Assembly (NCBI GenBank): GCA_026934365.1
Contig: JADHZE010000004.1
Location: 1-47,315, forward strand
DNA from: Isoptericola sp. QY 916
GTDB lineage: Bacteria > Actinomycetota > Actinomycetes > Actinomycetales > Cellulomonadaceae
Length of the DNA: 47,315 nucleotides
Direction of reading: 5' to 3'
Shown: positions 12,236 through 46,631 of the stretch, one piece after another
Position numbering within the stretch: the stretch's first letter is position 1
Layout of the letters: each line of letters starts with the position of its first letter
Program-made: the position numbers and the translations under genes
Notes under the pieces: generated by a model
Told to the model about the DNA's origin: nothing
The model's database searches: none
The model's input: only the letters and a program-made list of their open reading frames with translations

Positions 12236-13047
12236 CCACCGACCGCTCGCTCGCCGCGATGCTCGCCGAGGCCGGGGACGAGGGGCGTCCCCTCGTCGGT
12301 GCCTGGTCGTCGATGGGCAGCCCCGTGGCGGCGGAGCTCCTCGCCGGCAGCGGGCTGGACGTCGTGCTGGTCGACGGCGAGCACGGGCCGAACGACCTCA
12401 CGACCGTGCTCGCGCAGCTCCAGGCCACCGCCGCGTACCCGGTCGCGACGCTCGTGCGCGTGCCGTCCGGCGACCCGGTGGGCCTCAAGCGGGTGCTCGA
12501 CCTCGGCGCCACGAACGTCCTGGTGCCCATGGTCGACTCCGCCGCCGAGGCGGAGGCCGCGGTGCGCGCCGTCCGGTACCCGCCGGCCGGGGTGCGCGGC
12601 GTCGGCAGCGCGCTCGCCCGCTCGTCGCGGTGGGCCCGCGTGCCCGGCTACCTCGGCGGGGCGGACGACGGCATCACGCTCGTCGTCCAGCTCGAGACCC
12701 GCGCCGCGATCGACGACGCCGCGGCCATCGCCGGCACGGACGGCGTCGGCGCCGTCCTGATCGGCCCCGCGGACCTCGCCGCGTCGCTCGGCCACCTCGG
12801 GCAGCAGGACCACCCCGAGGTCGTGGACGCCGTGCTCCGCGCGATCGCCGCGTGCCGCGTGGCGGGCACGCCCGTCGGCGTCAACGCCTTCGACCCGGCT
12901 ATGGCCGACCGCTACCTCGACGCCGGGGCGGCCTACGTCGTCGTCGGCGCCGACGTCACCCTGATCGCGCGCGGCTCCGAGCAGCTCGCCGCGCGCGTCG
13001 CCTCCCGCACCACGACCGCGCACACCAAGGACGGTGGAACCCGATGA
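12220..13047 (+). CDS. hpaI: 4-hydroxy-2-oxoheptanedioate aldolase
   Basis: A 275-residue class II pyruvate aldolase of the HpaI/citrate-lyase-beta-like TIM-barrel family. Active-site segments are VDGEHGPNDL (His base, ~residues 47-56), TLVRVPSGD (Arg), VQLETR (metal Glu, ~153) and IGPADLAASLGH (metal Asp, ~178). PMVDSAAEAEAAVRAVRYPPAG and VRGVGSALARSSRW are also characteristic. It splits 4-hydroxy-2-oxoheptanedioate to pyruvate and succinic semialdehyde. The gene starts inside hpaH (16-bp overlap) and ends in an ATGA overlap with the next dehydrogenase, so the enzyme and the consumer of its aldehyde product are probably translated together. Confidence 0.93.
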   Translation: MPLRLTTDRSLAAMLAEAGDEGRPLVGAWSSMGSPVAAELLAGSGLDVVLVDGEHGPNDLTTVLAQLQATAAYPVATLVRVPSGDPVGLKRVLDLGATNVLVPMVDSAAEAEAAVRAVRYPPAGVRGVGSALARSSRWARVPGYLGGADDGITLVVQLETRAAIDDAAAIAGTDGVGAVLIGPADLAASLGHLGQQDHPEVVDAVLRAIAACRVAGTPVGVNAFDPAMADRYLDAGAAYVVVGADVTLIARGSEQLAARVASRTTTAHTKDGGTR

Positions 13048-14525
13048 CGACGACCAGCCCGATGACGACGATCCCGGCCGGCTCGACCAGCGTGGAGGCC
13101 CCGACCGGCCTCCTGATCGGCGGGGCGTGGCGCGACGCGTCCGACGGCGGGTCGTTCGCCGTCGAGAACCCGGCCACGGGCGAGACGCTGACGCACGTCG
13201 CGTCCGCGACGAGCGACGACGCCCGCGCCGCCCTGGACGCCGCCGCGGGCGCGCAGGCCTCGTGGGGCGCGACCCCCGCCCGCGTGCGGGCCGAGATCCT
13301 GCGGCGCGGGTTCGCCCTCGTGCAGGAGCGCCGCGAGGACCTGGCGCTGCTCATGACGCTCGAGATGGGCAAGCCGCTCGCGGAGGCGCGCGGCGAGGTG
13401 ACGTACGGCGGCGAGTTCCTGCGCTGGTTCGCCGAGCAGGCCACGCACGACGACAGCCGGTACGCGCACACCCCGGAGAACACGCTGCGGATGCTGGTGC
13501 AGCGCCGCCCCGTGGGCCCGTGCCTGCTCATCACGCCCTGGAACTTCCCGCTCGCGATGGCCACCCGCAAGGTGGCACCCGCCGTCGCCGCCGGCTGCAC
13601 CATGGTGCTCAAGCCGGCCCGCCTGACGCCGCTGACGTCGCTGCTGTTCGCGCAGCTCATGGTCGAGGCCGGTCTGCCGGACGGCGTGCTCAACGTGGTG
13701 CCGTCGGCGTCCGCGTCGTCGGTCAGCGAGCCGCTGATGGCGGACCCGCGGCTGCGCAAGGTGTCGTTCACCGGCTCCACGCCGGTCGGTCAGAACCTGC
13801 TGCGCGCCGCCGCCGGCACCGTGCTGCGGACGTCGATGGAGCTGGGCGGCAACGCCCCGCTCGTCGTCTTCGAGGACGCCGACCTGGACGCAGCCGTCGA
13901 CGGCGCGATGGCCGCCAAGCTGCGCAACGGCGGCGAGGCCTGCACCGCCGCCAACCGGTTCTACGTGCACGAGTCCGTCGCCGACGAGTTCGTCTCCCGG
14001 CTCGCCGAGCGCTTCCGCGCCGTCGTCGTCGGGAACGGCCTGGACGACGGCACCACGCTGGGCCCGCTCGTCGAGGCCAAGGCCGTGGACTCGGTCGCGG
14101 CCCTCGTGGGCGACGCCGTCGCGCGCGGCGCGCAGGTCGTCGTCGGCGGCTCCCGCGTCGACGGGCCGGGCCACTTCTTCCAGCCCACCCTGCTGCGCGA
14201 CGTCCCCGCCGACGCCCGCTGCATGACGGAGGAGATCTTCGGCCCCGTGGCCCCGGTCGCGACGTTCCGCACCGAGGACGAGGCCGCGGAGCTCGCGAAC
14301 TCCACCGAGTACGGGCTGGCGTCGTACGTGTTCACGTCCGACGTGCGCCGCGGGCTCGCGTTCGCCGAGCGCCTCGAGTTCGGGCTGCTGGGCCTCAACG
14401 CCGGCGTCATCTCCAACGCGGCCGCGCCGTTCGGCGGGATGAAGCAGTCCGGCACCGGCCGCGAGGGCGGGTTCGAGGGCATCGCCGAGTACCAGGAGAC
14501 GCAGTACGTCGGCATGCCGCTCTGA
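13044..14525 (+). CDS. gabD: Succinate-semialdehyde dehydrogenase (NAD(P)+)
   Basis: A 493-residue aldehyde dehydrogenase of the GabD type. Marks are LLIGGAWRDASDGGSF, MTLEMGKPLAEARGEV, LLITPWNFPLAMATRKVAPA, the glycine turn FTGSTPVGQ, the general base in MELGGNAPLV (E266), the nucleophile in NGGEACTAANR (C300) and EEIFGPVAPV. The EMGKPLAEA and GEACTAANR forms separate SSADH from HpaE-like enzymes. It oxidises the succinic semialdehyde released by the adjacent aldolase to succinate, connecting the pathway to the TCA cycle. It is the last gene of the operon: the TGA at 14523-14525 is followed after 3 bases by a remarkable repeat array, then the convergent E2 gene. Confidence 0.9.
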   Translation: MTTTSPMTTIPAGSTSVEAPTGLLIGGAWRDASDGGSFAVENPATGETLTHVASATSDDARAALDAAAGAQASWGATPARVRAEILRRGFALVQERREDLALLMTLEMGKPLAEARGEVTYGGEFLRWFAEQATHDDSRYAHTPENTLRMLVQRRPVGPCLLITPWNFPLAMATRKVAPAVAAGCTMVLKPARLTPLTSLLFAQLMVEAGLPDGVLNVVPSASASSVSEPLMADPRLRKVSFTGSTPVGQNLLRAAAGTVLRTSMELGGNAPLVVFEDADLDAAVDGAMAAKLRNGGEACTAANRFYVHESVADEFVSRLAERFRAVVVGNGLDDGTTLGPLVEAKAVDSVAALVGDAVARGAQVVVGGSRVDGPGHFFQPTLLRDVPADARCMTEEIFGPVAPVATFRTEDEAAELANSTEYGLASYVFTSDVRRGLAFAERLEFGLLGLNAGVISNAAAPFGGMKQSGTGREGGFEGIAEYQETQYVGMPL

Positions 14526-14528
14526 GCG

Positions 14529-14606
14529 CGAGGTAGTACGGGAATCCGCGAGGTAGTACTACCTCGCGGATTCCCGTACTACCTCGGCATTCTGCGTACT
14601 ACCTTG
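14529..14606. repeat. 20-bp-period array of CGAGGTAGTAC containing a perfect 58-bp palindrome
   Basis: Five copies of the 11-mer. Two are in forward orientation at 14529 and 14549 (20 bp apart). Three are inverted (GTACTACCTCG) at 14556, 14576 and 14596 (20 bp apart), the last with one mismatch. The last forward and first inverted copies share the central GTAC, giving a 7-bp offset. The 9-base spacers GGGAATCCG and CGGATTCCC are also complementary, so 14529-14586 is a perfect 58-bp palindrome. It fills the gap between two convergent operons. It could fold as a long hairpin terminator, or be a multi-site protein target; the identical period in the second array at 46494 argues for the latter. 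Confidence 0.9.
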
Positions 14607-14612
14607 CGGTGC

Positions 14613-16064
14613 TCAGCCCCAGACGAGCCCCCGCGCCGGGTCCTCCAGCACCTTCGCGACGTCGGCCAGGTAGCGGGCGGCGAGCTCGCCATCGACCAGG
14701 CGGTGGTCGACGGACAGCGCGAGCTGCGTGACCCAGCGTGCCTTGATCTTGCCCCTGTGCACCCACGGCTGCTTGCGGATGGCGCCGAACGCGAGGATGC
14801 CCGCCTCACCGGGGTTGAGGATCGGCGTGCCCGTGTCGGTGCCGAAGATGCCGACGTTGGTGATGGTGATCGAGCCGTCCGCCATGTCCGCGGGCTGCGT
14901 GCGGCCCGCGCGCGCCGTGGACGTGAGGGTCGCGATCGCCTTCGCCAGGCCGAGCAGGTCGAGGGTGTGCGCGTCCTTGATGTTCGGCACGACGAGGCCG
15001 CGCGGCGTCGCCGCCGCGATCCCCAGGTTCACGTAGTGCTTGTAGACGATCTCCTGCGCGCCCTCGTCCCAGCTCGCGTTGATCTGCGGGTGCCGGTTGA
15101 CCGCCAGCAGCATCGCCTTGGCGGCGACGAGCAGCGGCGTGACGCGCACGTCCGCGAAGTCGCGGTCCTCCTTCAGGCGCGCGACGAGCTTCATCGTCTT
15201 CGTGACGTCGATCGTCTGGAAGACCGTGACGTGCGGCGCCGTGAACGCGCTGGCCACCATCGCCTCGGCCGTGCGCTTGCGCACCGACTTCACCGGCACG
15301 CGCGTCTGGCGGCCGTCCTGGCTGACCGTGCCGGAGGCGAGCCACGGCCTGTCGTCGTCGGGGTAGGTGGCGAGGGACTTCGGGGCGGCACCCTCGTGGT
15401 GCGCGACGACGTCCTCCCGCGTGACGATCCCGCCCGGTCCCGTGGGGTGCACCGACGCGAGGTCGACGCCGAGGTCCTTCGCCAGCTTGCGCACCGGCGG
15501 CTTGGCGAGCACGCGGGTGCTCTGCGCGCCAGGCGCCGCCGGCACGCTCGCCATCGGCTTCTCGATCGCTGGGGCGGCCGGGGCGGGGGCCGGTGCGTCG
15601 ACGTCGAGGGGAGCGCCCGAGGTCGACGTCCCGGACATCGACGTCGGGCGCTTCGCCTCGACCTCGGCGGCCGGGGCGGCAGCGCGCCGCCGTCGTCGGC
15701 CACCGCCCGCGCCGTCGCCGGTGCCGTACCCGACCAGCACGGAGCCCGAGCCCTCGCCCGACGTCTCCTCGGCGGCCGCGGCGGGCGCGTCCGACGACCC
15801 GCCCGACGGCGCTCCGGCGGGGGCGTCGGTGGTGATCTCGATGATCGCCGTGCCGACGTCGACGGTCGTGCCCTCCTCGGCGAGCAGCGCCGTGACGGTG
15901 CCCGCCCACGGCGACGGCAGCTCGACGAGCGACTTGGCGCTCTCGATCTCCACGAACACCTGGTTGACGGCGACGGTGTCGCCGACGGCGACCTTCCACT
16001 CGACGATCTCGGCCTCGGTGAGGCCCTCGCCCACGTCCGGCAGCGGGAAGCGCTGGGTCGTCAT
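14613..16064 (-). CDS. bkdC: Dihydrolipoamide acyltransferase (E2) of a branched-chain 2-oxo acid dehydrogenase complex
   Basis: A 483-residue E2. The lipoyl domain spans ~residues 3-80 with the lipoylated Lys in VEIESAKSLVEL (~45). A long Ala/Pro/Gly-rich linker (~80-190) carries an RRRRR run. The peripheral subunit-binding domain covers ~195-235 (PPVRKLAKDLGVDLASV, GPGGIVTREDV). The catalytic acyltransferase domain covers ~255-483 and ends with the SVDHRLVDGELAARYL active-site His. It passes acyl groups from E1 to CoA. The start ATG is preceded by TGAGGAGAACG. Gene order on this strand is E1-alpha, E1-beta, E2, with 20 bp between E1-beta and E2. No E3 gene lies in the window, so the complex must use a dihydrolipoamide dehydrogenase encoded elsewhere. 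Confidence 0.92.
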   Translation of the reverse strand: MTTQRFPLPDVGEGLTEAEIVEWKVAVGDTVAVNQVFVEIESAKSLVELPSPWAGTVTALLAEEGTTVDVGTAIIEITTDAPAGAPSGGSSDAPAAAAEETSGEGSGSVLVGYGTGDGAGGGRRRRRAAAPAAEVEAKRPTSMSGTSTSGAPLDVDAPAPAPAAPAIEKPMASVPAAPGAQSTRVLAKPPVRKLAKDLGVDLASVHPTGPGGIVTREDVVAHHEGAAPKSLATYPDDDRPWLASGTVSQDGRQTRVPVKSVRKRTAEAMVASAFTAPHVTVFQTIDVTKTMKLVARLKEDRDFADVRVTPLLVAAKAMLLAVNRHPQINASWDEGAQEIVYKHYVNLGIAAATPRGLVVPNIKDAHTLDLLGLAKAIATLTSTARAGRTQPADMADGSITITNVGIFGTDTGTPILNPGEAGILAFGAIRKQPWVHRGKIKARWVTQLALSVDHRLVDGELAARYLADVAKVLEDPARGLVWG

Positions 16065-45315: not shown

Positions 45316-45361
45316 CCTGACCCTGCCCCGCCACCCACCCGGGTGGCGGGGCAGGGTCAGG
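45316..45361. terminator. Bidirectional terminator hairpin, 21-bp perfect stem
   Basis: Arms 45316-45336 (begins CCTGACCCTGCCCC) and 45341-45361 (ends GGGGCAGGGTCAGG) are fully complementary around a 4-base ACCC loop. The hairpin starts directly after the poxB TGA, and its right arm contains the stop codon of the convergent aminotransferase gene. No T-tract is needed on either side for a stem this stable. This is a shared terminator for convergent genes. Confidence 0.9.
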
Positions 45362-46460
45362 GGCGCCAGGTGGCGGCGACGGCGAGGAAGGCGTCGTTCG
45401 CCTCGACCTCGCCGATGCTGACGCGCAGGCCGTCGCCGGCGAAGGGGCGCACGAGGACGCCGGCGGCGGTCGCCTCGGCGGCGCGCGCCACGGTCTCCTC
45501 GCCGAGAGGGAACCACACGAAGTTGGCGTGCGTCTCCGGCAGGTCCCAGCCCTGCTCGCGCAGGGCGGCGACGACGCGCTCGCGCTCGGCGACCAGCGCG
45601 TCGACCCGCTGGCGCAGCTCGTCCTGCGCGACCGGCTCGAGCGAGGCCAGCGCCGCGCGCTGGGCGATGTGGTTCACGCCGAACGGCGTCGACACCGCGC
45701 GGATGCCGGCGGCGAGGCGCGGCTCCGCGACGGCGTACCCGACGCGCAGGCCCGCCAGCCCGTACGCCTTCGACAGCGTGCGCAGCAGGACGACGTGGGG
45801 GTGCCGGCGCAGCAGATCGACGCCCTCGGGCGCCTGCGGGTCGCGCACGAACTCGAGGTACGCCTCGTCGACGATCACCAGCACGTCGCGCGGAACCGCG
45901 GCGAGGAACTCCTCCAGCTCGTCCGCGTGCACCACGGGGCCGGTGGGGTTGTTGGGCGTGCAGACCATGACGACGCGCGTGCGGGGCGTGACGGCGGCGG
46001 CCATGGCGGACAGGTCGAGCCGGCCGTCCGCGGCGACCGGCACCGTGACGGCGACGCCGCCCGCGACGGCGACCACGATCGGGTAGGCCTCGAACGACCG
46101 CCACGGGAACACGACCTCGTCGCCGTGCTCGACGACGGCCTGCAGCACGTGCCCGAGCACGGCCACCGAGCCGTTGCCCACCACGACCTGCTCGGCCGGG
46201 ACGCCCACGTGCGCCGCGAGCGCCTCGACGAGCTCCGTCGCGTACATGTCGGGGTAGCGGTTGGTCTCCTCCGCCGCACGCGTGATGGCCTCGAGGACGG
46301 ACGGCAGCGGCGGGTACGGGTTCTCGTTCGACGACAGCTTCCACAGCTTCGCGCCCTCGACGGGCCGCGCGCCCGGCACGTACGCGGGCAGCGCGGCGAC
46401 GGCGGCGCGCAGGGGGACGGCAGAGTTCTGGACGGCCGGCGAGTCAGCGGGGGTGGTCAC
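45357..46460 (-). CDS. hisC: Histidinol-phosphate / aromatic aminotransferase (HisC-Pat type)
   Basis: A 367-residue class I/II aminotransferase. KLSSNENPYPPLPSVLEAI, VVVGNGSVAVLGHVLQAV, FPWRSFEAYPIVVAVAG, CTPNNPTGPVVHADELEEFL, VIVDEAYLEFVRDPQ, the Schiff-base Lys in LRTLSKAYGLAGLRVGYA and LVRPFAGDGLRVSIGE fit HisC and its actinobacterial paralogue Pat (aromatic aminotransferase). No other histidine genes are near, and its neighbours are a lone poxB and an ATP-grasp gene, so the paralogue role is at least as likely as biosynthetic HisC. I used GTG 46460, where CATCCT lies at leaderless -10 distance; GTG 46478 is an alternative. Confidence 0.8.
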   Translation of the reverse strand: MTTPADSPAVQNSAVPLRAAVAALPAYVPGARPVEGAKLWKLSSNENPYPPLPSVLEAITRAAEETNRYPDMYATELVEALAAHVGVPAEQVVVGNGSVAVLGHVLQAVVEHGDEVVFPWRSFEAYPIVVAVAGGVAVTVPVAADGRLDLSAMAAAVTPRTRVVMVCTPNNPTGPVVHADELEEFLAAVPRDVLVIVDEAYLEFVRDPQAPEGVDLLRRHPHVVLLRTLSKAYGLAGLRVGYAVAEPRLAAGIRAVSTPFGVNHIAQRAALASLEPVAQDELRQRVDALVAERERVVAALREQGWDLPETHANFVWFPLGEETVARAAEATAAGVLVRPFAGDGLRVSIGEVEANDAFLAVAATWRP

Positions 46461-46493: not shown

Positions 46494-46631
46494 CGAGGTC
46501 GTCCCTCCCTCCGCGAGGCAGTACCAGCTCGCGAGGGCTCGTACTACCTCGGCTCGGTCCGTACTACCTCGCGAGGGCTCGTACTACCTCGGCACGGTGG
46601 GTACTACCTCGCGGAGGCGGGTACTCCCCCG
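46494..46631. repeat. Second 20-bp-period CGAGGTAGTAC array, eight positions
   Basis: Forward copies are at 46494 (9/11 match) and 46514 (10/11). Inverted copies (GTACTACCTCG) are at 46521 (8/11), 46541, 46561, 46581 and 46601 (all exact) and 46621 (8/11). Every step is exactly 20 bp, and the forward-to-inverted offset is 7 bp, identical to the first array. The 9-base spacers alternate: CGAGGGCTC at 46532 and 46572, GCTCGGTCC and GCACGGTGG at 46552 and 46592, which gives a 40-bp super-period. The array fills the gap between the ATP-grasp and aminotransferase genes, and the copy at 46601 supplies the TAG stop of the ATP-grasp gene. Confidence 0.9.

Follow-up and report, generated by a model that had tools for sequence, protein, structure and literature searches.

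Why does one 11-letter word, GTACTACCTCG, recur in a strict 20-bp register at two separate gene ends within 47,315 nucleotides of an Isoptericola genome (this whole stretch is called the window hereafter)? The arrangement at the second site, array 2 (46494-46631), is real. Its eight positions comprise two inverted and six forward copies, of which the forward six keep exact 20-bp phase, and the inverted pair is spaced by 20 bp; its offset to the forward copies is 7 bp, the same as in array 1 (14549 on the minus strand, 14556 on the plus strand; Table 1). The four perfect copies of the original prediction are also present, but its outer copies are better preserved than the "8-9 of 11" letters given there, with actual values of 9-10 of 11. 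The spacers of array 2 do alternate with a 40-bp period (a 40-bp unit at 46521-46613, 90% matches), and the TAG of the ATP-grasp gene (46604-46606, minus strand) does come from the copy at 46601. The 7-bp switch of orientation, in contrast, is not borne out as a rule: the offset between the arms of one intergenic array ranges from 4 to ~80 bp.

Table 1. Array copies and adjoining genes in the window.
Feature	Position	Strand	Remarks
Degenerate inverted copy of the 11-mer	46494..46504	-	9/11 letters
Inverted copy of the 11-mer	46514..46524	-	10/11 letters
Degenerate forward copy, 7 bp past the inverted copy	46521..46531	+	9/11 letters
Perfect copy	46541..46551	+	11/11
Perfect copy	46561..46571	+	11/11
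Perfect copy	46581..46591	+	11/11
Perfect copy; its complement gives the ATP-grasp gene (minus strand) its TAG stop, 46604-46606	46601..46611	+	11/11
Degenerate copy within the coding end of the ATP-grasp gene	46621..46631	+	9/11
ATP-grasp gene, 3' part (gene cut by the contig end)	46604..47314	-	Weak PF02222 match, 22.6 bits vs cut-off 27
Class I/II aminotransferase gene (hisC in the original prediction), downstream of the ATP-grasp gene on the same strand	45357..46460	-	PF00155
Array 1, same family: inverted copies at 14529 and 14549; forward copies at 14556, 14576 and 14596 (1 mismatch)	14529..14606		
Aldehyde dehydrogenase gene; stop 3 bp before array 1	13044..14525	+	
2-oxoacid dehydrogenase E2 acyltransferase gene, convergent; stop 6 bp from array 1	14613..16064	-	

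At up to one mismatch, the window holds 11 matches to the 11-mer against 0.29 expected, and none of 100 shuffles reached 11. Array 1 is a perfect palindrome across 14529-14586. The two arrays have the 11-mer in common but no spacer, so neither arose by recent segmental copying of the other, a possibility that had been raised for array 2.

The family of 20-bp-phased sites at gene ends is far larger than these two arrays. In the window's own genome (G000, 4.43 Mb), GTACTACCTCG occurs exactly 187 times, compared to 2 occurrences of the same letters backwards, and pairs of 11-mers 20 bp apart with at most one mismatch number 151, compared to 0 for this control. A census of 45 stretches of the genome, including the window, yielded 263 copies in 67 arms, which are head-to-tail rows of 2-8 copies. 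Among successive same-strand neighbours less than 40 bp apart, 164 of 165 stand at 20 bp and one at 21, and further same-strand neighbours lie at 40 bp (6) or 60 bp (1). From one unit to the next, letters change at 30-53% of spacer positions and at 0-10% of 11-mer positions (26% at the second base): the 9-bp spacers are free to vary while the step stays fixed. Indels would be expected to accumulate in such diverged spacers under tandem duplication by itself; that there are almost none points to a constraint on the step. Inverted pairing is present too, as 96 of 153 arms belong to two-armed arrays (degenerate partners counted). Genome counts, step and distribution across genomes thus strongly support the dispersed, maintained family that had been proposed. 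Growth and erosion in 20- or 40-bp steps, likewise part of that proposal, are borne out by the identical spacers in some arrays, such as array C380, and by copy numbers that vary between orthologous gene ends. Identical spacers and the 40-bp superperiod are also typical of slippage, and the arrays could in principle be its functionless debris, i.e., old tandem duplications of a chance motif. We consider this very improbable, because core and step stayed fixed through many spacer changes and because the same core, with its placement at stops, recurs at many unlinked loci and is present in six genera.

What the species studied have in common is the 8-mer CGAGGTAG, which is followed by a species-preferred triplet. 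Exact pairs of this 8-mer were found in 30 of 198 family genomes of at least 90% completeness, representing 6 of 25 genera, with all controls at zero. Within the window's genus, nine of 16 genomes contain 14-286 such pairs and seven contain none, so that any function is dispensable at the genus level; a two-protein tree (midpoint-rooted, with some weak nodes) shows genomes with and without pairs intermixed. Of the seven genomes lacking exact pairs, a looser 9-mer search recovered pairs in four (8 in G012, 2 in G003, 1 in G005, 1 in G013), whereas G002, G008 and G009 again gave none. In a class-wide sample that included three members of the window's genus and no other genus of the family, the triple core (up to one mismatch) matched 2 of 393 genomes, both from the window's genus. 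Genus g8 has matches in 14 of 15 genomes, and a compact form of four cores, its arms offset by a constant 41 bp, recurs, as judged by eye, among the matches listed. Carriage by phages was considered and rejected: the two viral contigs matching the triple core are both 10-bp microsatellites with a GC content of 0.54-0.55. The relatives of the window's genome have a GC content of ~0.73.

The core also emerged from a motif-free search of contiguous 400-kb stretches, where counts at lag 20 reached 86 in G016, 35 in G004 and 276 in G001, all led by CGAGGTAG, and 9 in G010. Lag 40 was raised as well, as expected. Neighbouring lags other than multiples of three mostly had counts of 12 or below; higher counts occurred at lag 22 in G004 (28), lag 53 in G016 (20) and six lags in G001 (16-44). 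The top intergenic word of the G010 stretch (L171-L190) was TCACGTGAAA, probably the ParB site parS, a sanity check for the k-mer method. The G004 stretch (L211-L230) contains further families of long perfect hairpins between genes, for example of the ATCGAGCGTGCTGA and GGTTGAGCCTGTCGAAACC types.

The triplet behind the core differs between species like a dialect. It is TAC in 144 of 192 G000 copies, a share inflated by the use of the TAC form of the motif to find the loci, and TTC or TCC in 83 of 102 G004 copies, whose loci were found by ACTACCTCG pairs with the first dialect base fixed and the other two free. TGC is the commonest triplet in G007 (69 of 169), with TAC, TGG and TAG also common; the G004 and G007 loci examined (22 and 25, respectively) are part of those present. 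CGC follows all 30 G001 copies and GCA 13 of 22 G016 copies, values that come from the 400-kb stretches and are independent of the dialect. The GTAG columns of the core are 96-100% conserved in G000, G004 and G007 and 98-100% in G001, with the copies collected at up to two core mismatches (one for G001), which favours conservation. Half of the examined G004 array loci (11 of 22) are orthologous to array loci of G000, and at these shared gene ends G000 uses TAC in 37 of 54 copies, whereas G004 never uses TAC and has TTC or TCC in 46 of 57 copies. One such comparison, L020 with L105, retains an identical host gene end over the last 24 bases, including TAG. By the sharing of two or more genes, 5 of the 25 G007 loci examined also correspond to G000 loci. 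The contrast between G000 and G004 looks as if the sites had followed a changed reader: either the preference of one reader changed and the sites followed, or arrays are being renewed all the time from a single stock in the genome. A related motif, CGAGATAGAGAAC, forms inverted repeats spaced by ~21-22 bp in L031 (4711-4785, G000) and L152 (2998-3049, G010); the L031 motif stands at a gene end whose G004 orthologue (L097) has CGAGGTAG.

Arms, when read as CGAGGTAGTAC, usually start at or just behind a same-strand stop codon. Across nine species, 101 of 153 arms contain such a stop or have one no more than 20 bp away, compared to 28 of 153 from the opposite side. The reach into coding sequence seen at the ATP-grasp gene is recurrent, since a copy supplies the TAG stop, at its sixth base, in 20 of 67 G000 arms; TAG also ends seven of the nine stop-adjacent G001 arms. 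The stop codons of the window's genes are TGA in 39 and TAG in four cases. When a 71-bp arm was placed at random in intergenic gaps of 60 bp or more, the corresponding fraction was 0.17-0.20 over all gaps and 0.40-0.53 for convergent gaps alone; convergence therefore accounts for part of the stop enrichment. The 150 arms with two neighbours (nine species) are placed between convergent genes in 81 cases, between tandem genes in 37 and 25 (two arrangements) and between divergent genes in seven, and an opposite-strand gene lies upstream of 14 of 56 G000 arms; genes were called with a codon-usage script rather than a published gene finder. Sense-only placement prevails over antisense-only strongly in two-armed arrays (63 vs 1) and weakly in one-armed arrays (19 vs 8, p = 0.05), and polarity towards the gene is thus not proven apart from the inverted two-arm layout. 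We found no function common to the host genes: scans of 36 of the 37 host genes and of the ATP-grasp gene gave 53 families, none in more than two proteins. In three species (L057, L094 and L061), livF-like and periplasmic binding protein genes on opposite strands have kept arrays behind both, with a DUF559/MTES_1575-like gene between them in G000 and G007. A GC-rich terminator-like hairpin comes after the array in L057 and its orthologues, where the array is therefore no substitute for a terminator.

The loci of the window itself have changed among the relatives. Behind the orthologous E2 gene, where G000 has array 1, inspection by eye revealed perfect inverted repeats in G004 and G016 and near-perfect ones in G010 and G017, which use other motifs (CGAGAYAGAG and CGAGATCGAC types), other long hairpins in G007 and G013, and no array in the remaining relatives. 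Of the 17 genomes read (G015, whose match was cut, was left out), G000 and G004 alone showed an ATP-grasp neighbour within 260 bp upstream of the aminotransferase gene. The G004 interval, the sole orthologous one seen, has no array; array 2 was thus either gained in G000 or lost in G004. The end of the ATP-grasp gene in G000 is itself array sequence.

This absence, together with patchy presence in the genus tree, would fit REP-like selfish repeats that are spread by a putative mobilising enzyme and tolerated at gene ends as harmless insertions. The core would then be the recognition site of the enzyme, the triplet its species-specific dialect, and slippage the source of tandem growth. Placement points the same way: like the GTAG REPs in the available text of PMC3733652, the arrays stand behind stops of convergent or tandem genes, supply TAG, and have GTAG outermost in inverted pairs. 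However, the REP-associated tyrosine transposase (RAYT; Y1_Tnp, PF01797) that the original prediction had suggested was matched in none of 18 genus genomes, while the same search was positive in five of 14 control genomes. The unit also has hardly any stem, with a mean longest stem of 2.79-3.58 bp compared to 2.59-3.32 bp after spacer permutation (five species; slightly above the control in four), and exact 20-bp steps with diverged spacers need a constraint beyond copying. The placement is REP-like, but the arrays do not qualify as classical REPs, and we regard selfish repeats of this kind as possible but rather doubtful. As neither the stem test nor the RAYT search came out positive and head-to-tail tandems dominate, we do not file the arrays as a REP family, even if they may behave like one. 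The idea that arms flanking a gene are transposon ends was rejected as well: no transposase was found among the flanked genes scanned, which encode one aminotransferase, one NUDIX protein, one oxidoreductase and two DUF559/MTES_1575-like proteins, with no Pfam match for L059 (330 aa).

The position of the arms behind genes could also mean that the arrays act as RNA in 3' untranslated regions, either as bidirectional terminator hairpins or as sites of RNA-binding proteins that set mRNA ends or stability. The palindrome of array 1 and the E2-gene inverted repeats with other motifs in G004, G010, G016 and G017 are in line with this explanation, as are central inverted repeats at a shuffle p <= 0.01 in two-armed arrays (4 of 16 in G000, 1 of 9 in G004, 0 of 2 in G007 and 0 of 1 in G011). 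The innermost mirror spacers are near-identical, so that the arms form a hairpin, in 11 of 32 two-armed arrays (G000 7/16, G004 0/9, G007 1/3, G011 1/1, G012 2/2, G178 0/1). Folding against spacer permutation gave mean z values of 0.17 to -0.67, near zero in G000 and slightly negative elsewhere, by at least two standard errors on the sense strands of G004, G007 and G016 and on the antisense strand of G007; there may thus be weak unit-level structure in G004, G007 and G016. Against column-shuffled controls, however, arms showed no excess of internal RNA structure in G000, G004 and G007 (mean z -0.26 to 0.03). Nor are the arms kept complementary: identity of mirror spacers across arms (0.545 in G000, 0.486 in G004) compares with 0.591 and 0.463, respectively, for same-arm neighbours and with 0.416 and 0.425 between loci. 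Rfam gave no match at gathering scores in the window, and all seven hits listed for five array loci, from two of them, were below these scores. RNA binding is not known to require a fixed 20-nt step. A reading by hairpins only is weakened by the mirror-spacer, column-shuffle and spacer-permutation results, and we consider action as RNA unlikely. A separate palindromic dispersed element of ~100 bp with arms like CGACCGTGCACGG..CCCGACACCCGGC occurs in L042, L044, L062, L077 and L114 (G007, G011); in the four loci examined (L114 left out), it lies between the two arms of an array.

Protein binding, the other nature offered by the original prediction, is the best reading of these data, and it is one that we infer. 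The two-turn step, the free spacers and the lack of excess structure within arms favour, on balance, a reader of double-stranded DNA. Each array would be a row of sites for one putative sequence-specific protein, which would recognise CGAGGTAG and the following triplet and bind head to tail, with one site per two helix turns (20 bp). Standing just behind stop codons, chiefly between convergent genes, such rows would most likely serve as barriers or insulators where transcription is stopped or held back, a role suggested by their placement. We put this forward tentatively, as slightly more apt to be wrong than right. Core, fixed step, free spacers, 3'-end placement, species-preferred triplets and arrays at orthologous gene ends are established at the level of sequence; a protein rather than RNA as the reader, its cooperative binding and its role as a barrier to transcription are what we infer. 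Several observations count against the binding platform: the weak polarity of one-armed arrays, the opposite-strand upstream genes (14/56), the divergent arms (7/150), the genus genomes without an exact core pair (7/16), the terminator-like hairpin of L057, the hairpin-forming arrays (11/32) and the negative spacer-permuted folding in G004, G007 and G016.

In its boldest form, the proposal would be a previously undescribed system of chromosomal punctuation, in which a putative protein polymerises on 20-bp-phased sites behind stops and marks or insulates gene ends, using a three-base code that species change and that dozens of unlinked arrays follow. We see this as a speculative possibility that is rather unlikely to hold in full. 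If a protein does read the sites, the genus offers a natural experiment, with orthologous gene ends that have the same array architecture and different three-base dialects, and with relatives lacking exact core pairs as controls. Coevolution of reader and sites, and protein-based gene ends in bacteria, would then be directly testable. If the arrays are instead a repeat without RAYT, REP-like placement and the capture of stop codons can arise in another way.

Iterons and operator arrays bound by cooperative proteins are, like these arrays, direct repeats of ~20 bp in helical phase; they serve one replicon origin or one operator, whereas the arrays stand at dozens of gene ends. A literature search by motif letters (titles and abstracts) and keywords did not find the GTACTACCTCG family, and the nearest precedents were GTAG REPs and TAACTGA repeats. 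With GTAG REPs, as presented in the accessible parts of Di Nocera et al. 2013 (PMC3733652), the arrays share a conserved GTAG in a dispersed intergenic repeat, a position no more than ~20 bp from the 3' ends of convergent or tandem genes, a TAG that often ends the neighbouring gene, inverted pairs whose outermost part is GTAG, and species-specific variants. GTAG REPs are, however, defined by a stem-loop (stems mostly 6-9 bp, at least 5 bp) and associated with RAYTs, and head-to-tail pairs are absent or rare according to the description, not the definition, in that text (PMC3733652). The arrays differ in having hardly any unit stem and no RAYT match in the genus, in the dominance of exact 20-bp head-to-tail tandems, and in the CGAG before GTAG and the dialect triplet after it. 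REPINs with their RAYT transposases, as far as the available text describes them (PMC3116915), resemble the arrays in inverted pairing and many copies, and in this respect also the compact four-core form among the matches listed for g8; unlike REPINs, the arrays have no RAYT, and in genus g1 their arm length is variable and the arms are often not complementary. The TAACTGA repeats of Beggiatoaceae, with 169 sets in the intergenic regions of one genome, are heptamers that mostly stand a short way before start codons, and species dialects do not figure in the abstract (PMC4679880). With them the arrays share the character of short, conserved intergenic direct repeats of patchy taxonomic spread that have a putative binder (PMC4679880).
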